Part shown: piece after piece, positions 6,701-58,617 of the stretch
How the letters are laid out: each line of letters starts with the position of its first letter
Position numbering within the stretch: the stretch's first letter is position 1
DNA from: Owenia fusiformis
Taxonomy: Eukaryota; Annelida; Polychaeta; Sabellida; Oweniidae
Direction of reading: 5' to 3'
Assembly (NCBI GenBank): GCA_903813345.2
Contig: CAIIXF020000006.1
Location: forward strand, 10,172,348-10,236,347
DNA length: 64,000 bases
Made by a program: the position numbers and the translations under genes
The notes under the pieces: generated by a model
The model's database searches: none
What the model was told of the DNA's origin: nothing
What the model saw: only the letters and a program-made list of their open reading frames with translations

Positions 6701-9700
6701 CATCACCTCAATTCCCTAAACTTATGGCCAACATTTGTATTCAATTGAAAGAGAAGAGTAGATATTTGTATAATACTTTGTATCATTTATAGATCTCCAG
6801 GTAGTTCTTTAAAGTATTTAATAAATTTTTCTTTCAAATACCATTAAGGTGCCACGGTACTTGGAAATGACAAAACATGCTGCATTTTTAGACATTTTTT
6901 GAACATGATAACAGATTTCTGTTTTGACCTCCAGTCAATTGTCATATTTGTTGTTCCCTCTTCAAATGAAGAGAAGCGAAAGATTTTCCTTATAAGGTCA
7001 AAATATTTCCCATGATGCAGTTCATGGAGGAACAAATTCATACTTCCTTGTTTTCCCCCATAGGTTTAACATGGGGATTTTCACACCTATTTATCAATCG
7101 ATATATTCGTTCATATTCAGATTATTATCAGAAACAATTGATCTCCTATTAATTTTAATATAACATATATTTTTTTCATTGTTTTGATCATGGGCTTTTT
7201 CAATTCTAGTTGAAAGCCCATGTTTTGATTCATAGCGTGGTGAAGACGATTGAAAATTGAGAAAATATTCCGGAAGAAGATGTCACATGATCAGTTGACT
7301 AGTCGCCATATTAGAAAAAATAATTTCAGTTGACTTACAACACTTTCATTCCAATATTACCACATTGCAAACTGCAACATTGATGAAAGAACAGAATAAA
7401 AGTACTCATCTTCAAGTTGCATTATAAAGTTACGTTGAAAACACCTATTTATCAATCGATATATTCGTTCATATTCAGATTATTATCAGAAATAATTGAT
7501 CTCCTATTAATTTTAATATAACAGATATCTTTTTCATTGTTTTGATCATGGACTTTTTCAATTCTAGTTGAAAGCCCATGTTTTGATTCATAGCGTGGTG
7601 AAGACGATGATTGAAAAGTGAGAAAATATTCCAGAAGAAGATGTCACATGATCAGTTGACTAGTCGCCATATTGGAAAAAATAATTTCATTTGACTTTCA
7701 ACACTTTCATTCCAATCTTACCGCTCTGCAAACTGCAACATTGATGCAACAACAGAATAAACGTACTCATCTTCAAATTGCATTATAGAGTTACGTTGAA
7801 ATCCTACAAACAATTGAGCAGTTTACCAAAGAAGACGCGTCACTGTTATCTAGGTCAATCAGTTCAGTGTCCGAAAGCAAATCTATAGCACTCGTTTCTA
7901 AATTTCATTGTTCATTGTACAAGCTTTTCTTGATTATACTTAGTATACTGGGGTCCATTCTTGTACTGTTCGTAGTAACAAACCTTCGTAAGTCTATTAA
8001 ATTTACGAATTCCATAAAGTTGCATTTCTGTGCCATTAATAAAGTTATGAACGATTCACAAATTATTAACAAGTTATGAAAAAAGTGACTTCATGTCTGC
8101 TGTCATTCCTTACTTTAATAGCACCTCTGACCCTTTCATAAATTTGTGAACGGCTTCTTACTTATTGTATTTTGTGACGTATTGTTATTTTTTAATCAGA
8201 GTAGACTAAGGGCAACACATCGAATTATTATCAATTTATTTCTATTTCTATTTTTGCTTCAATCTCTATTTTTATACCACTTATCATATGACTTTGATTT
8301 TATTAAATCTTGTTTGTTGTACTATCTGGACTATCTGTCCAGACAACTGTGGAATATGACGTCAATCCATTCGTTAATCTAGCTCTAAACAATTGAAAAA
8401 TTATGAATAAAATGTGTACCGTCCATTCGTAAAGGAGGAGGGAAAATATTGCAACAGATTTCGGACAGTCATATGTTGGATTTTGGCTATTTTCTGAGGA
8501 TTTAAACAGGTTGTTAGACCAATGCATTACCTCTAGGAAAAGCACTCCTAGAGATGATGAAATAATTTTGACTTTGAGACGGGGAAGATGCAAACAACAC
8601 ACCCACATGTTTTTTTCTGAAATGTTTTCCTAATTTTCAACTCCTTCCACCCCTGCCTTTTTTAATTTTTCTTGCATCAATATGTTGTATCTTAACACAC
8701 AGTTAACCCCTTTAAAGGAATAAGTGATTCCTTCAGGGGTTTTAAAAATATCCATTATGGGTGACAAAAATTAGCTGAAAGCAATGGATTGCATGAGTTT
8801 TCCCTATGGGAAAATAACATGGCAAATATTGTTTTCCACTTTATCTAAGAGGAATCACATATGACTGTCCGAAATCTGTTGCGATACTTTCCCTCCTCCT
8901 TATGAATTCATGACTCATTCATAACTTTTTAATTATTTACTAATACATCTGTATTAATAAATTTACAAGACGGGCCCCTGACCATTAAAGCAATGACAAA
9001 GAACAATACCTTTGATAGTGTCATTGTTTTATTTAGCGTGCGGGTGTAAAAACAAAATTGCATAACTAGTTTGATTATAGCTTCGCGAAATTTATCGTTG
9101 GAAAATATTGACCAATCAAATTTTGTCCTTTTTGAGGGCTTTAAAGGGGCAATAAGGCTTGTAGAGTGAAAATAGGAAAATTTTAACTTTTTCTGAGCTA
9201 TCAAGGCAATAGTTGGCTTAACATGTTCTTTGACATACCTATTTTCTTAAGGTGCTATGGAAGTTAACAGGAAATGACAAAACAGGAAGTGACAATTTTT
9301 TTTGCATTTTTAGATATTTTGGGAATAAAGATGGTTTGACCTCCAGTCAATTTAACTATTTCCACATATCATTTACATGACCAGGATCACAATGTGTATG
9401 GTCAGAATGACCCTAAACATGATGAAATAACCTTTTTAGCCCTTTGAAAGTGTGACTGAAAAAAAGCTAAAAGTAGGAGCGTAGGGATAGTCACTGAACA
9501 GAATCTTTTGAATTTTTCAGAAAATGTGCCCAATATAATGCTCTAACTAGTACAATCTTTGAAATATTAGAAAATTGTCTTAAACAAAAATGGCGGTCAT
9601 AAAAAGGAAAATAGATCGCTTTTTAAATCAGTTTTTTCATTTTTTTTCTTTTTCTATGAATGATATCAAATTTTCAAAGATTGTATCATTTAGAGCAATA

Positions 9701-25876: not shown

Positions 25877-27909
25877 ATGTCTCAGATTAAGAGAGATAGA
25901 TTTGGAGGTACGTAATATTATTTTACACAAAAAGTGAAGATTTTTATATTATAGTGTGATATGGACAATATTATTTGTATAATTTTACACTCAATAAAGC
26001 AAATCTAGTTTAAAATCTCAAATGGGGAGATATTGGTGTATTAATTGTTAAACACTATTTTTGCTGTTTTGATAATAATGCTTCAGAAGTCAACTGTAGT
26101 GGCAATTTTAGATGAATGGATTTAATGTGAAAAACAATAATCTACCAACCTATATGGAAAAATTAAAAGTTCTGTGACAGTTTTGAGGTTTACCATTCAT
26201 CAACTCCAATCATACATTTCAATTAATAAAAAATCAGACATCATAATAATCTATTACCTTAATAATATCGTTTAACTACAATATATGCCTCAATACAAAA
26301 CAGGCTAAAATTGAATAAATTTTAAAAGTTGATTGTGGTGTGTGGACATAAAACAATGATTGCGTTGACTGTTATCAATGTTTTGTTGAATCAGTATTTA
26401 CATTTACATGTACTTCTATTCAATAGTCTTGTTGTTATCTACATCATTGTTATTATTCGCTTGTATATCATAATTGTGTCAACACTTTTATCAACAATTA
26501 TTGAATGCTTAATGACTGAATTGCAATGACTTATTTGGTTATATTTCTATTTGAAAATGAAGTGTGAAACACCTCATTAGCAGCAATGGAAAATTAACTG
26601 AACAGCTCAAATTATATTTTGTTTTTAGTTTCATTTCCGTGATAGACCATCAGTTCTAATTTGAACTTAATTTCTTGCTCTGCAGATGTTGCCTAAGTAA
26701 CTGTATAATGCAAACTTTTAGAAACTATATCCAATCGGCAATACTCTCCACGTTTAATTAGTACATTTGTAAAAGTACAATATTACAACTACAATACAAT
26801 ACATATACAATAAATACAAATGTTATACAATTTATATACTGTTTATACAATATATACAAATGTGGTACAATACATATATAATATATACAGATGCAGTACA
26901 ATACATATACAACATGTACATATGCATTACAATACATATACAATATGTACATATGCAGTACAATACATATACAATATGTACATATGCAGTACAGACCTGG
27001 ATCCTACATCACCCACACCAGTTTATTTCTTCCTCATTTTCCAGATCCAATATAATATAAGCGTTTAATTAGGCTATCCTGGTATTAATATCTTATCAAA
27101 TAATTTCAACTGAAAATTAATTTTCAGGTCCATTCTGGAACCAAGGCATCATGGTAGCAGCGGCTGGAGGCCGAGTAGATATGTGTGGACACCAGATTGG
27201 GGATAGCCGATTAATGAGCACAATTCATAATATTTCACAGTACTTTGGCAAGAAGGTGATCATCAAGGGAGGCACCCGAGTGTTTGGAGTGAGCGAATAT
27301 TCAAAACCAGTAAGTACTTCAAACTGTAACACTTAATAATGAAAATGTAAAAGCAGCTACCCTATTGGTCAGATTGTATTGTTCAGTAAGTTTTTGAAAG
27401 TAACTCTCATTGAATACCTCTATAACTAAAAAAATCTGGTGAAACAATCAACTTATTCATTAGTGATTAGTCAAATGGGTTGCTCGTGAAAACCTTATGC
27501 AATGTATGTATCTATTTTCAAAATCTCAACACATAATTATTATTAATATCGTTTATAAGAAAATGAGTATTCACTTATCGGGGATCTAGAAAAGCCAATG
27601 ATTTTAAAAAGCACTTTTGAAAAAGTTTGTCTCATTCATATTTTAAAAGTGTTGTTATTTTTTCAGCACATGGTAGGCAGAGCTGCAGATCTATGGATAG
27701 ATGGCGAGACTAGAGGAGATCACGTTATGCATTTATTAAAATCCAATGCTGTTATACCTAACACTGACTATACTGTGATATACCATGGTAGGGGTACATG
27801 CCCAAATGGTAGACACATACACATCTCTAGAAATGGAGACAACAGAGCAACACAGTGGATTATTGAGCCATCAGGTGGAAATGATAGCTGTAGGTACAGC
27901 TGTAAATAA
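25877..27909 (+). CDS. small peptidase M15/hedgehog-fold-like protein
   Basis: Three exons: 25877-25907, 27128-27309, 27667-27909, phases continuous, 151 residues, no signal peptide, so probably cytosolic. The signature is HMVGRAAD (residues 72-79), the HxxGxAxD zinc motif of D-Ala-D-Ala peptidases and related hedgehog-fold proteins, followed by RHIHI (residues 120-124), which fits the second HxH zinc ligand. The order and spacing (about 40 residues) fit the M15 type. Upstream GRVDMCGHQIGDSRLMSTI is well formed but not recognised. The usual acidic residue before the second histidine motif is not obvious (CPNGRHIHI), so catalysis is uncertain. Possible poly(A) signals AATAAA are at 28967 and 28999. 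Function is not known to me; a role in peptide cleavage is inference only. Confidence 0.72.
26760..26995. repeat. AT-rich minisatellite in intron 1 of the M15-like gene
   Basis: Units of about 27-30 bp with TACAATACATATACAATATG and GTACATATGCAG, five to seven degenerate copies. The open frames across it on both strands are repeat artefacts. Confidence 0.85.
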
Positions 27910-40655: not shown

Positions 40656-43600
40656 ATGTCAACTCTACCGACTGCAGTTAATTCCGCTCCTCCCCCGGGG
40701 AAGCGGAAAGAAATATATAAGTATGAGGCTGCCTGGAATATCTATAGTATGAACTGGAGTGTGCGTCCTGATAAACGATTTCGACTTGCTGTGGGGAGCT
40801 TCGTCGAGGAATACAACAATAAGGTTTGCATCATTATAAAGGCCTAAATCCTTACTCCGAGAGCCATGTTAGATTTTGAAACTTATGGCTCTCCAACGGA
40901 TAAATGGACATCTGAATAATAGTGACTTTTGAAACACAAATTATAAGTTGATCCGTGGCTTACTTTTGTTCTCTAACTATGTCATACATCATTATCATCC
41001 TTCCGTACAAGTATTGTACAAGTACTTCCTTTTCGATCAAGACTTGTAATTGTTAGTCAACTGAATGTTTTTTCTGCCAAATTCCAATATGGCGTTTTCT
41101 GCTCGGACACTTTCGTAAAATTTCCGGAGGTTGTCCGAACCTAACTCATTCTCAAAATTCATTTCGTTTGTTGCATATCTCGCTCCTAGCAAACCACCAT
41201 ATTGGAAATTGGTCGTAAAAACATTCACTCGATGAACCAAAGTCTTGATCGAAAAAAGAAGTATTTCAGCGCTCAAATACTTGCATGGATTGATGATACT
41301 GATGTAAGACACAGTTAGAGACCAAAAGTAAGCCGCGGATCTCATTATTCATGTTTTAAAAAAACATTATTCATGTTTTAAAAAAACAAATGCAGATTAC
41401 CGAATACCGCGGTTTTGGGTCTACGTTCGCGAATTCGTACATTTCTTAGTCATATAAATCTGACCCTCGTATGATGTTATTTGTAGCTATTTTTCTGATT
41501 TGGATATTTATTTTTTCTTATTTTCTTGCATACTAGGGTCATACACACTCCGCGCTTCTAAATTGCGGGAAATGCTTTCCTGGCCTGTCTACCCAACCAA
41601 ATTCACACAAATGATAAATAAATTTCTTTGTTTCAACTATAAAGTATTTAATCTTACCTTAGACACGTAAAACGCTTGGTAATTGAAGAAATATAAGCAT
41701 GCCGCTTGAATTTTAAAATTTTTTCATTTTGCCATGCCAAGGTCACTTCCGGGTTAATCTGAGTCTAGATGTAAAACTATATCAAACGAAATCATAAGTA
41801 CTTGTTACACGAAGATTCAGTTGAAAGCTCTTGTTGAAAGGGAAGCAGTGTCGTTAAGAAGGGAAGTTATTTGGAAAAGTTATTGTTTCAAAATGAGAAA
41901 AGTAATAAGTATGAGAGAACGGCTTTGGAATCGATCTCTGTGTAATAAATAATTATGATTCCGTTTCGGTACATGTTTACATTTAGACTACCGGAAACAA
42001 CATTCAGCAACATGGCGGGCGATAATGAAAATATAATTCAATTGATTATATCTCGTCAATTATCAAGTGTTTTACATGTCTAAGGTAAGATTTAACACTT
42101 TGATGTTGGAGCTAAATAATTACTCGATAATTTGTGTGACTTTGGTTAGTATGGTAACTATGGTTACCAAGACAGGCCAGAAAAGCGTTTACCGCAATTT
42201 GTCAGCTATAATATCTACGACGGTATATGCTAAGAAAATGATAAAAAATAAATATCCAAATAGGAACAAGGAATATCGAAAAACAGCATACAACGGTCGG
42301 ATTTATATGACTATACATTTCTGGGACTGAGTTAAGATTTTGCCAAAGTTTTTGGTGGTGAATTTGGTCCCTTTCATATAAACGCAGTGTATAGTCATGA
42401 TTTATAAATGTCTTACCTGATTATCGATAATCCCTGCATTTAATTAAGACATCTACAGCTAGCTATTTAACGTAGACATTTCTCAAATTGAAAAAGTTAT
42501 TATGCTCGCCAGGCTGCCATGTTATTTTTTTCAAAATTAACATGGCAGAGAAGCATCAGAACATAAGAGGTTACAGACTTTATAACCCAATTCACAAGCA
42601 ATCAAAGATATGCAAACGTTAAATGTCATTCGTGTGCAATACAAAAATATTATTGCACAATAGTGTTTAGATTTCTTATTGTTTGGGTTCAACTGGTTGC
42701 TTTGAAGCAGTGTAACCGACTGTATACAGGACACATATTGGAACATATTACAGACAAAAATAGCATACCTCAATAATTTCCTTCATTTAAGAGTTCTTTT
42801 TATGTGCTCAATCCTCAGTCATGGGTAATCGGAAGTAGAAGGAAATTTTTGTTTTTATTGCAATTTTTGTGCATTATTTAATCATGTATCCCAGGCCTAC
42901 AGCCAGGATTTGCCAAGCAGAGGTTCTTTTTTTGAAAAATTCCAGGGGGGTCACTTTTGACAACATTGGCCCAAAAATGGCCTAAATCGCTTGAAAGGTG
43001 CTCAAAATGGTGAAAAACTGCATGAATTTGAAAGAATTTTTGGCTGGGGGGTCGCTTTGAGTTATGATATTTTTCATCTCTTATACATGGCAAATACTCC
43101 CATATTGTAACCATACAGACAAAATATATAGGTGTACACAGGACTACTAGTCCTGGCACCAGATAACCCTCTCTCATATATATATGATTATATAATAATA
43201 TGGATATTGGTACATATAGGTCAACTGTACACATTGCTTGCAATTTTGTCACTCCCTATAGATTTTATTTTTCAAGAGGGCCAAGGCGTCATTTCCATTG
43301 GAGATATTTTGTAATTCTAAATAATGAGGAATGAAGTAATTCATGTTAATAATCCAGTTAGGAAATTATAAAGTAAAGGCTTAAGAAGGTGATGCTCATG
43401 AGCTTTTAATCAAAGTGACACACCCCTAGCTACTAAACTGTGTTTCATTTCTCATGAAGACCACTTTGGAAAAAAATCCTCAATAGTATCATTCTTTTGT
43501 TTGCTGGATTATCACTGCTTCTCACAAATGGAAAATCAATAATTGTTAGATTATATCCCCGGAGAACAAAGTTATTTCTAATAGCATATATATTGATCAT

Positions 43601-46600
43601 GCTTTATGGTATGATCCATTAAGCTCTTCACCTTTATGTATTTCTAGGATCCATTAAAGTAATAGTCAATGGAGTGTCAGGATGATAGCGAAAATTACTC
43701 TTAATGTTGATTTACTTTTTGAATAACATTTGTGGAGTAATTGCATGTCAACTGATAATTTAGCCATAATGTATTACAGTCAAATTGGACAATGGTTACA
43801 ATTACACAGTCCAGATTTGATCAATATTCTTTTGTCAATATTTTATGCTTCTGTATTTGGCAATCTAATTCCAAATGTCTTATAATTTATACTATTATCA
43901 TATTTATACTACAATTTAAAAATGAATTAAATGGGCTGATTGATTAATTTGAGTTCCTCCATACTTTGTATTTCTCGGGATTTGGGTATTGATAGATGGA
44001 ACTGGAAGGGGATCAGGGGTACAAAATGATATCATGCTCTAGACATTAATTATATTATTTCTAGATTTATAATGTTCAGTTCAATGGTATCAACCCTGCA
44101 TAATAGTATTTACTTTTTCTATATTGTTATTTATTCTTATCTCATTTAAAGGACATACACATTTCAGATTTTTACTGCTTTCAGTTTGAAATGTTTTATT
44201 ACATTTTGTGTTATTGAACTCATTTCTGATCGTATTCCAGGTTCAGATAGTATCTCTCGATGAAGAAACTTCAGATTTTGCAGCCAGAAGTACATTTGAC
44301 CACCCATACCCTACTACCAAAATTATGTGGATTCCTGATAGTGTAAGTTTTAACCTCACAAATGTAATATATGGCAGACTACCTGAATGAAATCACATAT
44401 TTAAATAGTAAATTAAGATAACTAAACTACAATGTACTTCATCACTGGACAAGTATGTTCATTTACTGATTACAGTTGAATTTGTTTATCCGAACACCTC
44501 TCTAAAACAAACATGTCTTTGTAAAGAAAGCTTTTGGGTATACTATCCCCTGTGTTGTCAACACACTGAGAGCTCCAATGTGAAAAGCCAAATGTAGTTA
44601 TATTCACTTTAATTAGACTTATATAATATCTTATATTAAGTTGGAAATATATCCAGCATACTAATAATAGATCTGCTTTAACCATTTCAGAAAGGAGTAT
44701 TTCCTGACCTGCTTGCCACAAGTGGTGATTATTTAAGGGTCTGGCGAGCCATAGATACAGAAACTAGATTAGAATGTCTACTAAATAATGTAAGTAGAAT
44801 CTTATACACCCTTAGGAAAAAAACAACCATTTTTTCCGAATTTCAACCGTTAAAATCCATTGCGCAACCATTACAAATCATTGCATAACCATTGCTGCAA
44901 CCAATTGAAATGGTTTCCAACCATTACATTGCAACCATTAAAATTTGGTTGAAAACTTTGGTTGCATATCATTGAAATTATGGAATCATTTGCAACCATT
45001 ACAAACCATTGATTGTTTAAGTTGCATTTACCAAATGGTTGCAACTATTTTCAACCATATTGTGGAAATTATTTAGTTTAAGAATGAGACAATTTGAAAC
45101 ATGAAGAACATACAAGTAAATTGAATGCATTATTATGTTTCAAAATACAGTAGTTCATGTTTATGGGCATATTATTTCTAATTAATTGAAGAGAATAAGG
45201 TTTATTCATTTTTGGCACTGGATATGATTTCAAGTTCATTCTCATAGGCATATTATTTCTATAAAGAATAAGGTTTATTCATTTTTGGTACTGAATATTA
45301 CTTCAAGTTCATGTTCATAGAGATAGTATTTCTATTTTATTGAAGAGAATCAAGTGTATTCATTTTTGGCCCTGGTCATTCTTGTAGTTTATTTGGAAAT
45401 TCCTTCTTGATTCATTCAGTTTTACTGAACAATACAACAAAACGTTCTGTGGAAATTTTCTGTTTTTCTCCTGTCTCAACAAAAAAATGTTTCTGACTAA
45501 AAGTACATACATACGTGCACATATTATGAAACATCAAAGATTGTATTTCCTGCCTCTTGTTTATGATTTGGATTAAGCTAGTGCCAAAATAACTGCTTCT
45601 TCAATATCAAAGAAGTCTTATTACAACAATTAAGTAGATTAAACTGAAAATGTTTCCAAAACATGATTTTCAAACATCAACATCCTTGTATTTATGCTTT
45701 GGATTAGGCAAGAGCCGGATTGATTGTCTTTTCTTCAATATCATTTACAAATCAAAAAATATTAATTACTAATTGGATTAAACTTTAATCATAATGACTG
45801 AAAGGGAAATATCTTAAACACTTGAATAGATGATATTTCCTTTTACTAGACATGGTTTTATGCCTATGAGCATGAACTTGAAGTTGGATATGTCTCAAAA
45901 TTGTATTATGAACTTAAGTTAACTATCGCTAGAAAAAAGAGAATTCATCAAGACCATAGCTGGCTTCAAAAATCTTAATGTGAATCTCATCTAATTTACT
46001 ATGATTGTGTCATTATTATGGTAGGGGGAATTCAAAAATAAATTATTTAGACAAAAATAATTCTTTAAAAAAGAATTAATTTGTAATGATTTTGTTAAAC
46101 TATCAAAACAGAACTTTATCTAATTGGCTGTTCAAGGGTTATAATTAGCATTTCAATGGTTATAATTAGCTTTTCAATGGTTATAATTAGCATTTCAACC
46201 GTTGCCGCTCTGTCTGTACAACTGTTGCTGCTCTGTCTTTGTACCTTATCTGAATTCAATAATGTGAAATCTTAATTTGTATTTCTACAATTTTCTTAAT
46301 GTAAATAAGCCAGCAAAATTAAACAATATTGAATTGAAACAAAAAAGAATCCTTATTTTCTTACAAGATTTCTGCATTTTTCATTCTCCTTAAAAACGAT
46401 ACCTGATAAGTGATTGCAATAGTCATAGAAATAAGTGTTTAAAATCCTAGGGATTAGATTAAATGATATATACAAATAAGTGTATGTTTTTTGTTGTTCT
46501 GGAAGTGACGTCAGACTTGTCATTGAGAACAAGATCCGAGACAAACAAAATCGAAAAAAAATTCTTTAATGAGAGAAGAGTGTGATAGACTGCAGACTAC

Positions 46601-49600
46601 AGACATGCTTACTTAAAAAAACATACTAATAATATCAACATAGCCATAGCCCAACATTATTTCAAATTCATGCAGTTTTTCACCATATTGAGGACTTTTC
46701 AAGTGATTTTGGCCAATTTTTGGCCATAGTTATAAAATATGAATCCCCTTGTAAATTTGTCAAAAGTGCAAAAGCTGGCTACAGGTCTGCCCATGAGCAT
46801 TCATTTTGAGGATTAATGGTTGCAATAGTTGCAGTTCCCAATCAATGGTTGCAATCAATTGTAACTGTTAATTTCAATGGGTAATGGTTGTAATGGTTTT
46901 GCAATGGTTTCTCAAAAATGGTTGCGTAACCATTGCAACTTTATGTAAAAAGGGTTGAAAATATTGGGTGAAGTAATGGTTGCGCAATGGTTTTGAATGG
47001 TTGATATAATGATTTTTCCTTTGATCTTCAAGGTTGAAATGATGGTTACATGATATGCAATGAAACCATTGAATTTCGGAAAAAATGGTTGTTTTTTTTA
47101 TAAGGGCGAGTCCCTTCAGTGCACCAGGGGTACAGGTCTTTGGAACTAATGATTTGTTACTAACCATACGATTGAGAAACAGACCCCATCCAGATTAATC
47201 AATGAGTTTTAAGAGAAGGCTTACATTTGATATATTATGCTTGCAAATTATTTTGATGAATAGTTATAAAGTAATGTCTGATCAAACAAAGATGTGCAAA
47301 TATTTCATCCCTTGCTTCTCAATTACTTGTTTTTTAAATATGTTTAATTTTTATATTTTAGAATAAGAATTCTGATTTCTGTGCACCTCTCACATCATTT
47401 GACTGGAACGAGGTTGATCCGAACCTACTAGGGACTTCAAGCATTGACACAACATGTACTATATGGGGCCTTGAGGTGAGTAATGTAATTATACAGTATG
47501 TACTACATGGGGCCTTGAGGTGAGTAATGTATTGAAACAACATGTTCTACATGGGGCCTTGAGGTGAGTAATGTATTGAAAACAATATGTGCTACATGGG
47601 GCCTTGAGGTGAGTAATGTAATGATACAACATATACTATATGGGGCATTGAGGTGAGTAATGTAATGATACAACATGTACTATACGGGGCCGTGAGGTGA
47701 GTAATGTATTGATACAACATGTGCTACATGGGGCCTTGAGGTGAGTAATGTGTTGATGCAACATGTACTACACGGGGCCTCGAGGTGAGTAATGTATTGA
47801 AACAACATGTGCTACATGGGGCCTTGAGGTGAGTAATGTAATGATACAACATGGACTGCATGGGGCCTTGAGTTGAGTAATGTTATGATATAACATGTTC
47901 TATATGGGGCATTGAGGTGAGTAATGTAATGATACAACATGTCAGCGCTTGCATTAGGTTAGAAAATTTGTGAGTCCCAAGGACACAATTTTTTTTAAAA
48001 AGTGTGTCCTTTGAAAAAAAAGTGTGTCCCTTATTTTTCAGTTTTTAATTTCTTGCCGCGAATTTAAAACGGAAGTAAACGTTAAGTACGGACTGAATAA
48101 ATGCATGTTCGTTCATTCGACAATGAATACATTTTATTTCATGAATGACCTAATATTTGTTTCTGAATAGGAAAAACTGTGGCGTGTCATGGTTTCAAAT
48201 CTAAAAATAAACAAAGTCGAAAAAATTCGAGAGAATCATGATTATTTGTAAATATTCAACATGTTGAGCCTTATTTACGATTCAAATAAAGGTGAGAGAT
48301 CATAATTATTTGTTTTTGTTAGGTATCGTTGTAAAAACATTGTAGTATTGACCTAAAAAAAATTTGCGTCCAAAAAACGGAAATATTTATTTTTGCGTCC
48401 TCCAAATTATTTTTGAGTCCTTAACATGTACAGGACGCCGTTAATGCAAGCCCTGCATGTGCTACATGGGGTCTGAGGTGAGTAATTTAATGATACAACA
48501 TGTACTACATGGGGCATTGAGGTGAGTAATGTAATGGTACAACATGTACTATATGGGGCATTGAGGTGAGTAATGTAATGGTACAACATGTACTATATGG
48601 GGCCTTGAGGTGAGTAATGTATTGATACAACTTTACTATTTGGGGCTGTGAGATGAATAATATATTGATACAGCATGTACTTTATTGAGTCTTTAGATGA
48701 ATACTGTATGCAACAACAGCTTAGAAAATATCCTGAAGAAAAAAAGTTGTTTGAATTGGAAACTTTAAAGATTACATGTACTTGGGAACCAAGCAATAAT
48801 ACAATGAATGAAGTTTATTGAGAATATTTAGAAAAGTCTAAAAACATTGTAAAGTAAAAGTTCATTAACATATGTGTGATTTTACTTTATACTTCCAGAC
48901 AGGACAGGTGCTTGGACGGGTTCATCAGCTTGTGTCTGGCCATGTGAAGACACAACTCATAGCCCATGACAAAGAGGTCTATGATATAGCATTCAGTAGA
49001 GCTGGAGGAGGTAGAGACATGTTCGCTAGCGTTGGTAAGATATTTATTCGGTGTTCTCCAGGGATTTTTCTCAACTGGGTGAAATTCGATTTTGGCAAGG
49101 AGAGGATGTGATTTATGAAATATCCTGATTTTCTAATTGAATCTTCAATTGGCTGCAAGGTGATTTTGAATGTGACCAATTTTGTAGTTTGGAGATGTCA
49201 ATCAATCTTTGGCAAAAAATTGATAATCATTCATCAATATGGTACATCAAGCTAAAAAAGGAAATCTCTATTTCATATCAATGAAGTTTTGCCCATACTG
49301 ATTTAATTTAAGGTACAAACAGATCCCTAATGAATGATAAATTAGTATATAGATATATGATGTAATTCTTGTCTCCTTTGATTCAGCCAAATGTGAGTTG
49401 ATGTTTTGAGTTTGACTGTTTTCCAGGTGCTGATGGTTCAGTGAGGATGTTTGATCTGCGACACCTGGAGCACTCAACTATAATATATGAGGACCCCCAG
49501 CACCACCCATTGTTAAGACTGGCCTGGAATAAACAAGATCCTAACTACTTAGCCACAATGGCTATGGATGCAATGGAGGTACAGTGAATCTTATCTTCAA

Positions 49601-52600
49601 TGTTCAGCTTAGAAAGCTATTTGAGTTGTGACATGCTCTCTTATGAACTTGATTTTGTACCCCTGATTCTCAGCTGGGTAAAATTTAAAAAATTATAATG
49701 AAAGAACTCTCCTTAATTCTTTATCTTAGAGGGAAGAAACATTAAACAATCATCTTTAAAGGAATAGTGGTAAATCGGGAATAATTCCTCAGAAAAACTC
49801 CAAAATAAATCCTTGGGCCTCAAACCTGCTCTGAAGAATGGCTATGAACCCGAACTTACTTTAGTCAAAATACTGGAGCCTGAAAAAATCACCCACCTCG
49901 AAATTGATGAAAGAAGTTTCAGTTTTCGTTTGTCGTAAAATTAACCTCCTTTTAACTACACCATCTAGTGAATGAATCATTGTTTTTGTGTCACATGATC
50001 GTTGTTTGGTGGGGGGGGTGCAGCAATGACGTAGCTGAGGTCGAGTCAGAGTTGAAAGTCTATCACTTGCTGTGACATTTGATTCAGATGCAGCATTAAA
50101 ACTATAGTCAAGTATCAAGCCTACCTGTCCTGTTTAGAAGTCAGCTATATTTTGTAACCTGTATTTTGTAAGTCCATCTGTGCTATCCCTTTTACTGAGG
50201 AATGTTTTTTAGTACTACAGTAGATTTTCTACTCTAGTGGAGATATTATGATATCACAATTACCCTTGTCTCATGCTTACACGGCCATAATTGTATCAGT
50301 TGTGTTCAAAAGTTTTTATCTCTTAACCTCCAGTTAATATTAATACTCCGAACGTAAATATTGTTCGTTTTTTATTAAATTAATTAATTAAAAATTATCA
50401 ATTTTTAACGCGTTCTGTCGAATAAAAAGTTCAAAGATTATATTTATTCATACTGAAAAAACTATATAGAATTACAAAACAAAGTATGTTGATATACGAA
50501 GACATAGAGGACACAAGTTATTTGTTCGCATTTTGACTGGCAATCCGCTAAGTGTTCTATTCACATTTGTACAACATATTGGGCGCGTCGTGTCCAGTGA
50601 GCAACCAAACAAAAAATATATAAACAAGTTCTCAAAAAAATAAATATTCAGTAGATTTCAGCAAAATATGATGGATTTCAGATTTGTTAACAATATTTTT
50701 GGTGTATCGATATTTGAGTCTTCGTATCGTCACCAAACGAGCCGATATATCAATGAATCGCGGGACCCAAATTCGCCACCTATCATAAGTTTATCGAATT
50801 AAAATGAAATTTTTCGATCCAAGAGGAAAAATTATGAAATCCGCTTGACATAATCCTTGTCTTCTTTAGTAGACACATCAGAACATGGGATTCATAGCCA
50901 TTCAACCAAGCCACAAGTATATTAGTTATTCAACATGTTCAATTGTGTTAATATTTTCGGCATTCCAACTTTAAGTGACAACAGCTTCCTTAAGGGGAGG
51001 CATCAAAAGTTCGATGTTGGATAGAAAACTAAATAAATCTAGTTAGGGGGGGGGAGGGTTTCGAACCCATATCAGTTTGCTATCCGACAAATTTCAACAT
51101 TTCAAATTTTTGGCAATTTTGACTCAGAATGCCTTGGAATGATTTAAAAATAAAGATTTTACCTGATGCTTTCTTCGTCAAGATCATTCCAAAGGATTCT
51201 ATTCCATCAATAGTTGTTAAAAGCCGCAAATGAAGGTAGGAATTAACAAAAACTAGATCGTGTTTAGCAATAATTTTTCAAATTCTCAAACCGGAAGTCA
51301 GCGATCAACTTTCACGGTATTTAGTTTTTAGGGGGAGGGGGGTCAGAGTCAAAACTAGATTTATTTAGTTTCCAATCCGACATTGAACTTTTGATGCCTC
51401 CCCTAAGTATTTTAGAAATGAAATACATGTACATGTATTACTTGATGTGTTTTTTTATCGCACCCTAAGGTGCTATGTAATCAGTTTGCTGGGTGTGTGG
51501 TTGGGCGGGCGGGCGTCCCGAATAATGTTGTCTACAGGTTTCCAGCCAAACCGTTTGAGGGATTCATTTGAAATTCTCAGGGATGTTTCTACCTATGAAA
51601 GTTTAGAACTGATTAGTTTTTCCGCATTCTGGGTAAATGTTAAGGTGGCCATTTTGGATTTTCCGTCCTAAAATCTTGTCTGTCAAGGCCTGTCTACATA
51701 TTTCCAGCCAAACCGTTTGAGGTATTCATTTGAAATTCTCAAGGATGTTTCTACCTATGAACGTTCAGAACTGATTAATTTTTCGGCATTCTGCGTAAAT
51801 GTTAAGGCGGCCATTTTGGATTTTCCGTCCTAAAATCTTGTCTGTCAAGGCTTGTCTACATGTTTCCAGCCAAACAGTTTGAGGGATTCATTTGAAATTC
51901 TCAGGGATGTTTCTACCTATGAAAGTTTAGAACTGATTAGTTTTTCGGCATTCTGGGTAAATGTTAAGGCGGCCATTTTGGATTTTCCGTCCTAAAATCT
52001 TGTCTGTCAAGGCTTGTCTACAGGTTTCCAGCCAAATCGTTCGAGGGATTCATTTGAAATTCTCAGGGTTGTTTCTACCTATGAAAGTTTAGAACTGATA
52101 AGTTTTTCGGCATTCTGGGTAAATGTTAAGGTGGCCATTTTGGATTTTCCGTCCTAAAATCTTGTCTGTCAAGGCTTGTCTACAGGTTTCCAGCCAAACC
52201 GTTTGAGGGATTCATTTGAAATTCTCAGGGGTGTTTCTACCTATGAAAGTTTAGAACTGATTAGTTTTTCGACATTTTGGATAAATGTTAAGATGGCCAT
52301 TTTGGATTTTCCGTCCTAAACTCTTGTCTGTGAAGGCTTGTCTACAGGTTTCCAGCCAAACCGTTTGAGGGATCCATTGATTTGAAATTTTCAGGAATGT
52401 TTCTACCTATGAGTTTTTCGGCATTCTGGGTAAATGTTAAGGTGGCCATTTTGGATTTTCCATCCTGAAAAGTGTATTCTGTTCAAGGGTGCGATTCTGT
52501 TCACCGTGTGGCTTATTATTAAATATCATCCTATTTATCTGAGAGGGCAGAAACATTAAACATAAATCTTTGAATGGACGAATGTTTTAGTTACAATGTA

Positions 52601-55600
52601 CTTCAGTTGTGACATTTTTTCCATCAACAATTTATCCTATCTGTAGGTACCTGTAGGACAAAAATTGATGGCATTACTATTAATTGCAAAACTGTTAATG
52701 GCATTGTAATTATTGATAAATCTAATAATGTCATAACTTTTTTAATTCAAAGAATTTATTTTACAAATACATATACATTGAACACTTATAGTGGCTTTGC
52801 TAAAAGAAACACCCATTCTCAAACACTTACAAAACACACGAGTACAATGTGGATGGCTTGTGCGCGACCCGTTTATTAAAGTAATCCATATAATATACAA
52901 AATCATACAGGTTTCACAATCTCTCTGCGTCTCTATCATCAATCCCTCTCAGGGATTCTCGACTAATGCACCGGGCATTGTCGTGGCCTCTTAGCCATTT
53001 AAACATTATTTTATCTGAAAAAACAATAATCAATTTCTCGGAGATTATTTCGATTATCCATAATCAATGCACCAAGCATTAACGTAGCTTCTTTGCCATT
53101 TGAACACTATTTAATTATATGTGCAATAAATGTTTTCAGTCAATACATCGTTGACCTGTTTCGGCATACATTCTATGTGCAAAGAAAATTAAACTTAACA
53201 GTTTATCTCTCCGTTTTCTACTAAATGATGTGAAACAAATATATCAGCGGCTATATCTGTAACTTAACTGTGAGCCAAACATGAACTGTCAAAATTAACA
53301 GTAATCATCACATTTAAAGACTTCAAATTTTTAAGTTTCAAGATTACTTTGATAAAATGAGATAATGAATAACATATCTAAGTTGTTTTGAACTTTTGTC
53401 AGTTTCGCGGAGACCCTTCTCACGAAGTGTAAGAAGTACCTAATCTAGGTAGGAGGTACCTAATCTAGAAAGGAGGTCTACCTACATCCTAAGCTGAAAC
53501 TGATGATGGTGTAGGCTCCAAAGCTCTAATGTAAAATATTGAAATATATTAACTGTATTTAACAAATGCCTTCTAATGTTTTTCCCACATTAACAAATAT
53601 TTACCTTAAAATAAATAAAATATCTGGTAAATTAAGTGAACAACCTATCTGGTCCACATAAGAAGCCGAAGTGACCAATTTACCTGAACAAACCATGACC
53701 AATCACACGACAGTACACCCAACAAACAAATTCGAGCCTTGGTATCGCATATAGCGCCAAATTCATAAGTGTTATAACACTTCAGTTAATGCATTAAATC
53801 ATTTTCAAACTCAATCACTACGTTCAATCGTTAGAAAATACATTAATCAGCCACTTGAAGCTGCAGAATTCACTAATTTCACGTGCAGAATTCAGCATTT
53901 TAACTCAGAAAACTAAAGGGAGTACATGTACTATTCTTCAAGAATACACTCTGTTAATATGAGTTTCATTAATTTAAGTCACTTAAAAATCAAAATCTTG
54001 TTCAAACAAATAAGAACATGTATTGTCTATAATTGTAGTCTTTGATAAATGTGTCTTTGTGAATAGTATCCATTATTTGTGTTTGACACTGTTTTACTTT
54101 GTGCATAAGAAATATTTGCAGATACTCAAAGTAGAGCATAAGATAAAGCTAACAACAAATACAATTTGTTGTTGTGTGTTTAAATCCAAAGAATGTTTAA
54201 TTGTTTAGAAAGACATCTTTGGTATTAACGTCAAGGTTAAGCATGTTGTCAAACAAGCAATCTTTCTAAAGCAGCTTCACACATCCTTTTGAATTCCTCT
54301 GTTGTAGTTTCTTCCTCATCAGACAAGTCATCCTCTGTGAAGGAAATGATCACCCAAAATTGGTGGAAATTCTGAAATATCTCCAGTTTATGTCTTATTG
54401 TCTGCAAATCAATGGTAGAGGAGATGGTATACAGAATCATAATGTTCGTTGGGATTTACTACTCCTTAGAGTTGCCGATTTCTAGTAATAAATGGCATAG
54501 GTATCCATGACAAACTATTAATGGTTTAACTATTAATGATACTACTAATTTATGGATAGTATGACTCAGCTTTCTCATATTCAGCTCACATTTAACTTTT
54601 TCAAAGTTGCATGAAACTTTTGCTTCACATAGTAGTATATTTCATAATTTTCTTTTAACCTCACCTTCACATATTCAATTATCATCTTTGATGATGGCCT
54701 TTTCTTTTTTGACTCGGCTATTTGGTTCACTCTAGTTGAAGCATTGAAATGTCCAATTCCTTGAAAGAAGGATGGTAGTATTCGCTCCATTGCCTTCAGT
54801 GTAAGTGCATATTCCTCAGTAAGTCCAACTAGCATGTGATACTTATCAATGTTGTGCTTGGCCTTTTGAAGTCCATATGTCATATTGGTAGAACAGATTG
54901 CTTCATGGCCACAGAACCATACAACATATCGTTTGGCAACTGCACCAAGACGACACCAAGCATCTACATCTTTAACAATGTTTATGTTTATTCTAATGCA
55001 TTCTTCAAAGGTTGGATTGTTATGGCTTTTGTAATATTCAGCATGTTTAATCTTTGGCTTAGCTTTTTTATAAGTAAAGTAATATCCTGATAACAAATTC
55101 TCAAAAGGTTCTCTGATAATGTTGAAGTAAATTGGCTGTTTGAATCCGAAGTCCTTAAAATTTACGAAATGAATATGGCGGTCCGTCACACATTTTCTTG
55201 ACACACAATCCTTAAAAGATTCCACAAAATTAAGGATGTCATTGGTGTCATTGAGTTGTTTCTGATCATATATATATGAATGCATCATTCTAAACTTGCC
55301 ATGACTGAGTTTCTTCAGGAAGGTCATCATTGTTGAAGAACCACATTTAGGCATTCTGTTGTATATCACTATATTCTGATTTGCTTTCTCATATATGGTA
55401 AATGGCAATATATCGATAGGATCTTGCTTTGTTTTAAGTTTCATTTTATCTATAGAATCTTTCACAGATTGTTCTGTCTTGTTAGCATTTTCTGATTCAT
55501 CAATTTCTTTATGCTGTATAGTAAATCTTTTTAAGTTAACCATCCAGGAGTTGTTGTTCATTTTTATTGATGACCTTGCATTGAAAACAAAATATATATA

Positions 55601-58600
55601 CAAACATCCAATTAACAGTCCAAGCAGAAGTCCACATTCTGTTTTAGTTATATGCATTTTACTGGTTCACTGTAAAAGCCTATCCCATAAGTTCCACTAA
55701 TATAAATTTTCTGCATAGTACATTGAGCTTCTACACATTTTGATATATACACACCCACACAGAAATTGGCATAAATAAACCTATTGAAGTTTTGAATGAA
55801 CCAAATAAGTCCTTAGACTGCTTTTTTTACCCTATTCAAAACTACTATTACAAAATGCCCTCAGTTTAAAATTGTAACATAATCAATTCTAGTCACATGA
55901 TGTATGGGCATTCAAATATTTCAACTATTTTTATCCCATCGAACGATATGTAAAACTGTAATAGCAATATGTTTTAGATGTAAAAAAAATTATATAGGAC
56001 ATTAATAAAGCTAGAAATGTAGATATTAAAGAAGCACATGGCAGCCATCTTGAAAAATGGCGGCCTTTACTCATTATTTTACGAATTTTGCTCTAACTCG
56101 AAAAGTAGTGGAGCGATTTTGTTCATATTTGGTATGTGAATACTATAAACATTGCACACTGTCTAAAGACACTTTTGGAAGAAGGTGGCCATTTTGAAAG
56201 ATGGCCGCCATTTTGAAAAATGGTCACCATTTTAACGTATTTTACTATAACTCGAAAAGTAGTGAAGCGATTTTGTTCATATTTGGTATGTGAATACTAT
56301 AAGCATGGCACACTGTCTAATGACACTTTTGGTAGAAGGCGGCCATTTTCAAAATGGCCGCCATTTTAACGTATTTTACTATAACTCGAAAAGTAGTGGA
56401 GCGATTTTGTTCATATTTGGTATGCGAATATTATAAGCTTGACACACTGTCATATGACACTTTTGAAAGAAGGCGGCCATTTTGAAAAAAATTTTGAAAA
56501 ATGGCCGCCATTTTAACATATTTTACTATAACTCAAAAAGTAGTGAAGCGATTTTGTTCATATTTGGTATGTGAATACTGTAAGCATGGCACACTTTCTA
56601 TTGACAGTTTTGGTAGAAGGCGATCATTTTTGCAAAATGGCCCCCATTTTAACATATTTTACTATAACTTGAAAAGTAGTGGAGCGATTTTGTTTATTTT
56701 TGGTATGTAAATACTATAAGCACAGCACACTGTCTTATGGCACTTTTGGTAGAAGGTGGCCATTTTGAAAAATGGCCGCCATTTTAACGTTTTTTGCTAT
56801 AACTTGAAAAGTAGTTTAGCGATTTTGTTATAAGCATGGCACATGGTTTAATGACACTTTTGGTAGAAGGCGGCCATTTTGAAAAATGGCTGCCATTTTT
56901 GGTATATACTTTGTTTGTAAAAATGCCATCCATAGCTGTTCGATGGGATTCGCTACGCTTTGGTGTTGCCGTTGTTCTGGTTTGCAGTAAAGAAAATAAG
57001 GGAACTAAAAAATATTGATACTTTTATTAAATTATTCATCTATTGACATTTCAAAATATTAGTTGTCAAAGGGTTAAAAAGAGATGTTGGTGTCACATCA
57101 GCTCAAATACTTTTTTGAGTGTAACATAATTTGTAATTATCAGAATCTTCATCAATTGGCCTTATATCTAGAATTTTGTTTAACTATGATTTTTATGTCA
57201 CCACCAAAAGTTGTGACATACTGTTATGGTCTCTGTTTTTATTTGTGTTTGTGACGGTGGTTGGCAACCAGCGTCTGTAACAAATTCTAAAAACTTCCAA
57301 TAACTTAACAAATACTGTTTAGAGTGATTTCAATTTTTTTCAAAATCATCTACAAGTCCTTGGAAGTTCAAATCTGACTTTATATTTGAGATTTGACCTT
57401 CAATGACTGTCTGAAGGTCAAAATGGTCTTTTTCAACTTGCTTCAAATTGACCAATTTTTTCAATATCATCTACAAGTTCTCAGAAGTTCAAATCTGAGA
57501 GATTTGACCTTCAATAACCCTCTCAAATGTAAAAAAAGGCCAAAAAGGTCTTTTTTTAACTTGCTTCAAATTGATCAATTTTTTTCAAAATCATCTACAA
57601 GTTCTCAGAATTTCAAATCTGACTTTAGATTTGAGATTTGACTTTCAATGACCTCCCAAGGTCAAAAAGGGTCAAGATGGTGTTTTTCAACTTGCTTCAA
57701 ACTGACCAATTTTTTCAAAATCAAAACTTTCTCAGAAGTTCAAATCTGACTATGATTGACCTTATAATATCTTCCTGAAAATGGCTAAAATGAGGCTTGT
57801 ACATTCCGCACACACGGCTAAAATTGCTTGAAATGCCAAATAATACCACCCAATAAAGTTTCACAATTTGTACCATGAATAAGAAACATGAATCTCATGT
57901 ACGGTACTAATAACAATATTTCCATTTAATAATTTCTAGGTAATAATCTTAGATGTGCGTGTACCATGTACTCCAGTGGCAAGGCTCAACAACCATAAAG
58001 CCTGTGTTAACTTTATCTCCTGGGCACCTCATTCTAGCTGCCACATATGTACTGCAGGTAAGACATGATATACAAACAACTAAAATAGTCTTGCATCATG
58101 AAGTTCATTTATTTTCTACATATGTTACACTGGTTCTGGTCATCACCCTTGGTGTGTCAAATTTAAAGTTTGAAGTGGGTTGAGTTTGGTAAGTCAAGGT
58201 TGTAAATTAAAACAGTTTATCATTGCATGAAGTATGTTTTCTTATTCTGAAGAATAAACAGTAGTGGTGCAACTCAAATGTCAGTACTTGCCACTCACTC
58301 GTTTAATTTGTCCAAGATAGTTGCCTGTTTTTACATTTCCTACTTGAGTGACATTTTCTGGCGAGTTGCACCACTAGTAAACGTTAGCCTCGGTTTGGTT
58401 CTAATATCATTTCTAAAAATGTATATTTCATTTAAATCTTTCAGCGGACGATCATCAAGCATTAATATGGGACATTCAACAAATGCCACGAGCAATAGAG
58501 GACCCTATACTAGCATATACTGCATCTGGAGAGATCAATCAGGTACAGTGGTCAACCACTCAACCAGACTGGATAGCTATTGGTTATAACAACTGCCTGG

Positions 58601-58617
58601 AGATTCTCAGAGTGTGA
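40656..58617 (+). CDS. DCAF7: DDB1- and CUL4-associated factor 7 (WDR68/HAN11)
   Basis: WD40 scaffold that binds DYRK1 and HIPK kinases and can act as a CUL4-DDB1 substrate receptor. Exons: 40656-40823, 44241-44342, 44691-44789, 47362-47475, 48899-49034, 49427-49578, 57940-58057, 58445-58617; phases continuous, 353 residues (human 342). Nearly invariant blocks include [75 protein letters not shown] and the C-terminus NNCLEILRV. Exon 1 uses a GTTTGC donor, the others are standard. Intron 4 carries the exon-end minisatellite, intron 6 (8.4 kb) the nested sulfotransferase gene and two large arrays. The N-terminus ([14 protein letters not shown]) is longer than in human. Confidence 0.97.
40950..41341. 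repeat. inverted-repeat element in DCAF7 intron 1
   Basis: Left end GATCCGTGGCTTACTTTTG and right end CAAAAGTAAGCCGCGGATC are inverted. Arms of about 145 bp run to about 41095 and from about 41198; both contain a form of CCAATATGG. The minus-strand ORF across it is a by-product. Confidence 0.8.
42890..43075. repeat. dispersed repeat, 'TTTTGACAA..TTGGCCC' family
   Basis: Contains CACTTTTGACAACATTGGCCC and ATCGCTTGAAAGGTGCTCAA-like text. Related copies: about 15760-15910 (same strand) and about 46660-46770 (inverted). The rest of DCAF7 intron 1 (to 44240) shows nothing further that I can assign. Confidence 0.6.
44806..47110. mobile_element. 2.3-kb element with long AACCATT-rich inverted ends
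   Basis: The left end CCCTTAGGAAAAAAACAACC and right end GGTTGTTTTTTTTATAAGGG are inverted. Each end is about 250-300 bp of repeated CAACCATT / AATGGTTG. The interior has a ~90-bp unit repeated three times (about 45160-45390, TTCATTTTTGGCACTGG-like) and a 27-bp unit repeated three times (about 46135-46200, GGTTATAATTAGCATTTCAA). No transposase is evident, so it is non-autonomous or decayed. Fills most of DCAF7 intron 3. Confidence 0.7.
47448..48715. repeat. minisatellite made from the DCAF7 exon 4 end and its 5' splice site
   Basis: The sequence CATGTACTATATGGGGCC, then TTGAG|GTGAGTAATGTAAT spanning the true donor at 47475/47476, recurs 16 more times with a period of 44-45 bp. Copies 1-10 precede the inserted element at 47943-48455 and copies 11-16 follow it. 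Thirteen of the 16 keep a perfect GAG|GTGAGT donor; copy 9 has GTTGAG, and copies 15 and 16 have lost it. Translation onward from exon 4 meets an in-frame TGA in the second unit, so using any decoy donor would shift the frame or truncate the protein. Confidence 0.95.
47943..48455. mobile_element. 513-bp non-autonomous DNA transposon inside the minisatellite
   Basis: Ends CAGCGCTTGCATTA and TAATGCAAGCCCTG are inverted. CATGT (47938-47942 and 48456-48460) is a 5-bp target duplication, and the repeat unit on either side joins exactly when the element is removed. Subterminal text with 'gagtccc..ggacac' is also partly inverted. The 5-bp duplication and CAG termini suggest a hAT5-like or related group; not resolved. 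Confidence 0.8.
50991..51406. repeat. MITE with ~60-bp inverted ends in DCAF7 intron 6
   Basis: Left TTAAGGGGAGGCATCAAAAG and right CTTTTGATGCCTCCCCTAAG are inverted and continue through ACTAAATAAATCTAGTT into G-rich stretches. No ORF. The interior is unrelated to neighbouring repeats. Confidence 0.8.
51448..52480. repeat. ~161-bp tandem array, six units
   Basis: Highly similar units, each containing TCCAGCCAAACCGTTTGAGG, TTTCTACCTATGAAAGTTTA, GCATTCTGGGTAAATGTTAA and GGCCATTTTGGATTTTCCGT. The last unit is shortened. A leader at 51455-51530 has GGTGCTATGTAATCAGTTTG followed by GGGCGGGCGGGCG. In DCAF7 intron 6. Confidence 0.92.
54249..54334 (-). other. possible terminal exon of an unidentified minus-strand gene
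   Basis: From a good acceptor (CATTTCCTTCACAG) the frame reads [18 protein letters not shown], then [10 protein letters not shown] and a stop at 54249-54251. The acidic, helix-like composition looks like real protein rather than a chance ORF, but no upstream partner exon is apparent on the minus strand. It could be a pseudogene or transposon relic. I do not recognise the family. Confidence 0.25.
54581..55657 (-). CDS. uronyl 2-O-sulfotransferase-like, intronless
   Basis: A 358-residue type II Golgi membrane protein of the sulfotransferase 2 family (HS2ST/UST), predicted to transfer sulfate from PAPS to the 2-O position of uronic acids in glycosaminoglycans. A single signal anchor lies at residues about 10-25. 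The 5'-phosphosulfate loop [11 protein letters not shown] (99-109) has the KCGS form of UST rather than the KT.S form of HS2[10 protein letters not shown] (160-167) holds the histidine region expected for catalysis, and [17 protein letters not shown] (from 178) is the 3'-phosphate site. FCGH and the C-terminal [17 protein letters not shown] also fit UST. The gene is one exon, nested antisense within DCAF7 intron 6. Whether it is the orthologue or an expanded paralogue cannot be decided here. Confidence 0.85.
   Translation of the reverse strand: MHITKTECGLLLGLLIGCLYIYFVFNARSSIKMNNNSWMVNLKRFTIQHKEIDESENANKTEQSVKDSIDKMKLKTKQDPIDILPFTIYEKANQNIVIYNRMPKCGSSTMMTFLKKLSHGKFRMMHSYIYDQKQLNDTNDILNFVESFKDCVSRKCVTDRHIHFVNFKDFGFKQPIYFNIIREPFENLLSGYYFTYKKAKPKIKHAEYYKSHNNPTFEECIRININIVKDVDAWCRLGAVAKRYVVWFCGHEAICSTNMTYGLQKAKHNIDKYHMLVGLTEEYALTLKAMERILPSFFQGIGHFNASTRVNQIAESKKKRPSSKMIIEYVKVRLKENYEIYYYVKQKFHATLKKLNVS
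56040..56970. repeat. tandem array with AAAATGGCCGCCATTTT palindromes
   Basis: About six to seven units of 120-155 bp. Each has TTTTACTATAACTCGAAAAG, TAGTGGAGCGATTTTGTTCA, TTTGGTATGTGAATACTATA, GACACTTTTGGTAGAAGG and a palindromic AAAATGGCCGCCATTTT. Single dispersed copies lie at about 16015-16085 and 17100-17200. Lies in DCAF7 intron 6. The open frames are by-products. Confidence 0.92.
57330..57775. repeat. ~130-bp tandem array, 3-4 units
   Basis: Each unit has CAAAATCATCTACAAGTTCT, CAGAAGTTCAAATCTGACTT, GAGATTTGACCTTCAATGA and TTTTTCAACTTGCTTCAAA. Ends shortly before DCAF7 exon 7 (57940). Confidence 0.85.
58262..58374. repeat. small inverted-repeat element in DCAF7 intron 7
   Basis: AGTGGTGCAACTC (about 58262-58274) and GAGTTGCACCACT (about 58362-58374) are perfect complements, with AAATGTCA / TGACATTT just inside. 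Length about 115 bp. No coding potential. Confidence 0.7.

Follow-up and report, generated by a model that had tools for sequence, protein, structure and literature searches.

A minisatellite spanning the exon 4 donor of a presumed DCAF7-like gene in Owenia fusiformis, with 13 intact decoy 5' splice sites

The studied window is a stretch of 64,000 nt from the genome of the annelid Owenia fusiformis (assembly GCA_903813345.2, contig CAIIXF020000006.1, positions 10,172,348 to 10,236,347 of the forward strand). Its + strand contains, at 40656-58617, an intact gene of a WD40 protein that comprises 8 coding exons in a single frame (354 codons, with the stop counted). By its sequence, we take the gene to be DCAF7/WDR68 or a DCAF7-like gene; searches against Pfam and the solved structures of PDB returned WD40 propeller proteins and did not name DCAF7. 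The DCAF7 gene is essential and conserved. The border between exon 4 and intron 4 lies within a minisatellite, each unit of which is composed of the end of the exon together with its 5' splice site (donor), and 13 further perfect copies of the donor follow the authentic one inside the intron (Table 1).

The array starts inside exon 4, at 47443 in the register of the units or at 47445 according to Tandem Repeats Finder, and includes the authentic GT. Tandem Repeats Finder reported it in two parts with a 44-bp unit and 87% matches each, 11.3 copies at 47445-47942 and 5.3 copies at 48456-48685. In the splice-site register, the unit consists of 33 nt of exon 4 (ATTGA...CTTGAG; ATTGACACAACATGTACTATATGGGGCCTTGAG) and 11 nt of the intron (GTGAGTAATGT), that is, 44 bp. 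The true donor is followed by 16 units, or 17 units are present when the exonic one is counted; these numbers come from a single haplotype of a single assembly, where the copy number could be wrong. The sequence GAG/GTGAGT (the slash marks the splice position) is intact in 13 of the 16 downstream units, the three broken donors being those at 47873 (GAGTTGAGT), 48653 (GAGATGAAT), and 48697 (TAGATGAAT). Divergence from the exon copy is 7-15% in 14 of the 16 downstream units and reaches 19 and 23% in the two units nearest to the acceptor. The mean difference between units is about 12%. The inter-unit distances, as well as the permutation test given below, were computed for 15 of the 17 units. In the underlying alignment, an extra A was dropped from the 47609 unit, ten columns of the unit split by an insertion (48478) were masked, and one gap each was placed in the split unit and in the 48653 unit. 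The original prediction of 16 copies with a 44-45-bp period, 13 of them perfect, was borne out by these counts, as were its donors at 47520, 47564, 47609, and 47653 and its exon 5 start at 48899. Realignment likewise preserved the likeness of the units to the exon; the proposed origin of the unit from the exon end plus the donor stands, whereas its exonic portion is 33 nt long and not about 28 bp.

Table 1. Features of the exon 4 to exon 5 region of the gene (positions in the window)
Feature	Positions	Strand	Description
Exon 4	47362-47475	+	114 nt; the last 33 nt (47443-47475) are repeat unit 1, by exon model and unit alignment
Authentic 5' splice site, intronic side	47476-47483	+	GAG/GTGAGTAA; true donor GT at 47476
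Intron 4	47476-48898	+	1423 bp
Minisatellite block 1	47487-47942	+	10 downstream units of 44-45 bp and the left part of the element-split unit
Perfect decoys of block 1 (n = 9)	GT at 47520, 47564, 47609, 47653, 47697, 47741, 47785, 47829, 47917	+	47873 is broken
513-bp element	47943-48455		Terminal inverted repeats CAGSGCTTGCATTA; target duplication CATGT; inside one unit
Minisatellite block 2	48456-48707	+	Right part of the split unit, followed by more units
Perfect decoys of block 2 (n = 4)	GT at 48478, 48522, 48566, 48610	+	Followed by the degenerate units 48653 and 48697
Intron 4 3' splice site	48879-48898	+	ATTTTACTTTATACTTCCAG; outside the array, dissimilar to the unit
Exon 5	48899-49034	+	136 nt; holds the premature stop at 48945 upon use of decoy 1

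The window contains 14 copies of the 9-mer GAGGTGAGT on its + strand and none on the - strand. All 14 belong to the array and correspond to the true site and the 13 decoys, while only 0.12 would be expected on the + strand from the base composition, which rules out a chance origin of the copies. A simple stutter of the assembly is thought unlikely, given the mean difference between units and the presence of a foreign element within one of them. A 22-base pattern of the unit gave 0 matches in the viral and 0 matches in the prokaryotic contig collections, as expected for animal DNA. Among the matches listed by a literature search for DCAF7/WDR68 in combination with tandem repeat, intron, or splice donor, no title dealt with a DCAF7 repeat.

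The array is not contiguous: the original prediction had missed the 513-bp element that splits one of the units. The termini of the element are 14-bp inverted repeats with 13 of 14 bases identical, and the element resembles a non-autonomous DNA transposon. A blastn search for further copies in the window yielded the element itself and short weak matches only. The hAT elements are characterized by short terminal inverted repeats starting with CAG and usually by an 8-bp target duplication; the studied element has short terminal repeats of the CAG type, whereas its duplication is 5 bp long (CATGT) and deviates from the usual hAT length. When the element and one CATGT are excised, the spacing between the donors at 47917 and 48478 becomes 43 bp. 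Thus, the array was continuous prior to the insertion, that is, the array was formed first and the element came later.

Splicing from decoy 1 adds 44 nt and shifts the frame; this product escapes the TGA at 47521-47523 and terminates within exon 5, at 48945. For decoy 2 and every later decoy, the TGA at 47521-47523 is retained and read. The earlier expectation of a TGA within two units of the array is correct from decoy 2 on, with decoy 1 terminating further downstream. Since all decoys result in a premature stop, only the first of these donors gives the full protein. The decoy mRNAs, in which several exon junctions lie downstream of the stop, would be expected to trigger nonsense-mediated decay (NMD).

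The acceptor of intron 4 has an ordinary pyrimidine tract (pyrimidine fraction 0.76) and ends at 48898, 191 bp past the last unit (ACTTCCAG). As it lies outside the array and has a normal tract, the 3' end of the intron is not owed to the array, and creation of the intron by the duplication was rejected. Judged by its acceptor, the intron is presumably older than the array.

Minisatellites that contain a donor were previously described in human genes. The unit of the IFI6 (6-16, G1P3) minisatellite is 12 bp long and preserves the reading frame. Multiple donors have been described in this minisatellite (Turri, Cuin and Porter, 1995), with two downstream repeat units serving as donors and giving rise to three mRNA species (PMC4526556). 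Downstream repeats with alternative donors are likewise found in the exon 4 array, but, unlike in IFI6, every exon 4 decoy leads to a stop. In ABCA7, the variable number tandem repeat (VNTR) of intron 18 lies next to exon 18, and the donor of this exon is part of its 25-bp unit (De Roeck et al., 2018; PMC5954066). When the donor of the next unit is used, one unit is retained, the frame shifts, and the product, which has a premature stop, is subject to NMD; such retention is reported at 2 +/- 1%, the latter of a pair of values given "respectively" in that paper (PMC5954066). The length of the VNTR is reported to have no effect on the use of extra donors and to correlate with exon 19 skipping and lower expression (PMC5954066). 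Both arrays are minisatellites located right behind an exon, with a unit that holds the donor of this exon and has a length that is not a multiple of 3, and in both the donor of the next unit produces a frameshift and a premature stop. They differ in that the ABCA7 unit is 25 bp long, its array varies in length among people, and its donor use and exon 19 skipping were measured, whereas the exon 4 array has a 44-bp unit with 33 coding nt and 13 perfect decoys.

A related layout is that of introns gained by AGGT tandem duplication, for which PMC4974935 gives the Rogers model, ATP2A1, and the fission-yeast 24-bp repeats. The exon 4 array shares with it a tandemly duplicated segment carrying AG/GT, here in the form of GAG/GTGAGT in the 13 intact downstream units. 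In that model both splice sites originate from the duplicated exon segment, whereas the acceptor used with the exon 4 array is external to it. With the authentic donor included in the array and the donor consensus kept in several units (13/16), the exon 4 array is of the same kind as the ABCA7 VNTR and the IFI6 minisatellite, in another gene and another animal, and is not a one-off.

The exon 4 donor is the strongest U1 match among the 7 donors of the gene, with a predicted U1 duplex energy of -12.4 kcal/mol, compared with -4.9 to -11.0 kcal/mol for the other 6. The weakest one (-4.9 kcal/mol) belongs to the first coding exon (40824, AAG/GTTTGC). The array is also rich in G-runs: GGGG is present in 15 of the 16 downstream units, and the density of G-runs in intron 4 is 11.2 per kb vs. 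2.6-5.3 per kb in the 6 other introns of the gene. G-runs bound by hnRNP F/H are described as enhancing a donor from downstream and silencing it from within the exon (PMC12062376). For TP53 intron 6, the same paper reports that the native donor was inactivated by deletion of the four G-runs that separate it from a cryptic donor.

The explanation that we consider probable is that a minisatellite with a donor in each unit arose through tandem duplication within an intron that was already present, and that the first donor is the one mostly used. A 44-bp segment spanning the border of exon 4 and intron 4 would have been tandemly duplicated and expanded to 17 copies by slippage or unequal exchange, and the element with terminal inverted repeats would have inserted into one of the units afterwards. 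The coding exon would remain the first unit, preserved by selection on the protein, and the downstream copies would be decoy 5' splice sites, for the most part disregarded by the cell. If the gene works, the first donor probably wins as the one that is transcribed and committed first, with an exon of 114 nt, and through the GGGG runs: for the true donor, all array runs after exon 4 would act as intronic enhancers, and for the later donors the runs already passed would sit inside a lengthened exon and silence them. A small leak to the decoys, chiefly to the first one, would end in premature stops, and NMD would eliminate the products. Array length may modulate expression or how exon 5 is defined and, by analogy with ABCA7, it might affect exon 5 recognition; skipping of exon 5 would shift the frame, since it is 136 nt long. 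By the same analogy, the array can reasonably be viewed as a candidate length-polymorphic splicing modifier.

A number of points weigh against this explanation. The U1 duplex energy is identical (-12.4 kcal/mol) for the true donor and all 13 intact decoys, so that these sites cannot be separated by U1 pairing. In a model of local pairing of the pre-mRNA, the true donor is the least likely to be unpaired of the 17 sites (0.0007 vs. 0.002-0.17), and pre-mRNA pairing was accordingly dropped as a reason for the choice of the first donor. In vitro, when identical donors are duplicated, the intron-proximal copy, i.e., the one nearest to the acceptor, is preferred. As neither U1 complementarity nor pairing nor this rule favors the first donor, it needs another advantage if the gene works. 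Choice of the first donor, which the original prediction took as necessary unless noise is tolerated, is held here as probable. Early transcription and the 114-nt exon form a weak explanation by themselves, since decoys 1-4 would still yield exons of 158-291 nt, which fall within the usual size limit of exon definition. With respect to the G-runs, the exon copy of the unit has its own GGGG (47465), which gives the true donor one exonic run. The rule about G-runs was drawn from human cells, and its extension to the exon 4 donor is conjectural. The native donor of TP53 intron 6 is weak and its rival strong, unlike in the exon 4 array, and replacement of TP53 intron 3 by a G-run-free intron resulted in only 1.3% skipping of exon 4 (PMC12062376). 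The lower expression of ABCA7 is, in the view of its authors, due neither to NMD nor to isoforms with premature termination codons (PMC5954066). The constancy of the donor block considered below is not predicted for a purely neutral array.

The main test of the variability of alignment columns included 14 of the 17 units, with the copy in the exon and both degenerate units at the distal end excluded, and the donor block was defined as 14 nt (GAGGTGAGTAATGT) after seeing the data. Variable columns constitute 2 of 14 in this block vs. 19 of 30 in the remainder of the unit (Fisher's one-sided p = 0.0027), and the numbers of mismatching cells are 2 and 42, respectively. For the 9-mer alone, 1 of 9 columns is variable vs. 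20 of 35 (p = 0.016). Only 6 of the 44 nine-column windows of the unit are as quiet as the donor 9-mer, all 6 of them within the donor block. When all 17 units are included, the contrast becomes weaker, with 5/14 vs. 22/30 for the block (p = 0.020) and 3/9 vs. 24/35 for the 9-mer (p = 0.062). The source of the contrast is the A and T columns, of which 0 of 8 are variable within the block vs. 12 of 18 outside; the consensus-G columns are equally variable inside and outside (2/6 each). The constancy continues beyond the U1 site into AATGT. The decoys are at least not being purged, and the constancy of the block hints that they are maintained.

These data bear on two other readings of the array. 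It could be a neutral bystander, i.e., an ordinary minisatellite that contains a donor by happenstance, does not measurably affect splicing, and has decoys that are not under selection. The loss of donors in 3 of the 16 downstream units, with the two distal units decayed throughout, agrees with such a view, as does the fact that the similarity of adjacent units does not exceed that of random pairs (permutation test on 15 units, p = 0.27), which is typical of a well-mixed array; moreover, the same gene has other tandem arrays, e.g., at 51528-52471 and 56076-56829 in intron 6. We nevertheless consider it unlikely, as 13 strong donors beside the true site would be expected to leak somewhat, the related ABCA7 array does leak, and variability in the 14-unit test is lower in the donor block than elsewhere in the unit. 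The opposite possibility is that selection keeps the decoys as a landing platform, formed by U1 sites and G-runs, that boosts recognition of exon 4 or blocks premature polyadenylation. In such a maintained device, 13 non-productive donors and the G-runs would hold U1 and hnRNP F/H at the start of the intron, exon 4 would be recognized, the transcript would be shielded from premature ends, and the array length would dial the output of the gene. The near-invariance of the block in 14 units while the exon-derived part drifts, which is most pronounced in the A and T columns, points in this direction, and all three AATAAA/ATTAAA hexamers of intron 4 are located in the inserted element, which has a block of U1 sites on either side. 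However, the block was picked post hoc, its contrast weakens with 17 units, its consensus-G columns vary as much as those elsewhere, its conservation goes past the U1 site, and 3 hexamers per 513 bp are little above the window mean of 1.5. Both forms of this reading, the platform and the device, thus appear improbable.

Recursive splicing was considered as a further possibility. In this case, CCTTGAG/GTGAGT would act as a 3' site and, at once, as a new 5' site, and the units would be removed stepwise, erasing themselves from an unchanged mRNA. In a ratchet (recursive) splice site, the donor is immediately preceded by a pyrimidine tract and YAG. AG is found immediately 5' of GTGAGT in every intact unit, and the arrangement is that of a ratchet site or of an AGGT tandem-duplication intron as modeled in PMC4974935. 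At the same time, all 14 tested array sites end in GAG, in contrast to the CAG or TAG found at each of the 7 real acceptors of the gene, and the pyrimidine fraction is 0.47-0.59 for the array sites vs. 0.65-0.76 for these acceptors. In addition, an intron of 44 nt would be below the usual animal minima. On the basis of the GAG ends and the low pyrimidine fraction, recursive splicing at GAG/GT was rejected, and we regard it as the least probable of all readings, with next to no chance of being correct.

The array places 14 donors in a single transcript, all with the same predicted U1 pairing and only the first productive of protein, and thus represents a clean natural test of donor choice. The factors that can be tested here beyond the donor sequence include the order of transcription, exon length, G-runs, and the distance to the acceptor. 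If the first donor is used, the locus would also illustrate the degree to which perfect decoys are tolerated by an essential and conserved gene. Alongside ABCA7 and IFI6, minisatellites seeded by an exon's own donor are possibly recurrent across animals.

Several other repeats were observed in the window. Intron 6 of the DCAF7-like gene (8.4 kb) contains a 162-bp unit repeated 5.9 times with 91% matches (51528-52471) and a compound array with periods of 134, 136, and 281 bp that includes GGCCGCCATTTT blocks (56076-56829). Elsewhere, a direct tandem duplication of 361 bp with 94% matches is located at 7083-7801, and a compound array with periods of 11, 20, 31, and 40 bp, formed by TACAATACATA-like units, at 26784-26993. 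The heptamer ACATGTA occurs 33 times in the window, with some of the occurrences within the exon 4 array itself, vs. about 7 expected from composition.
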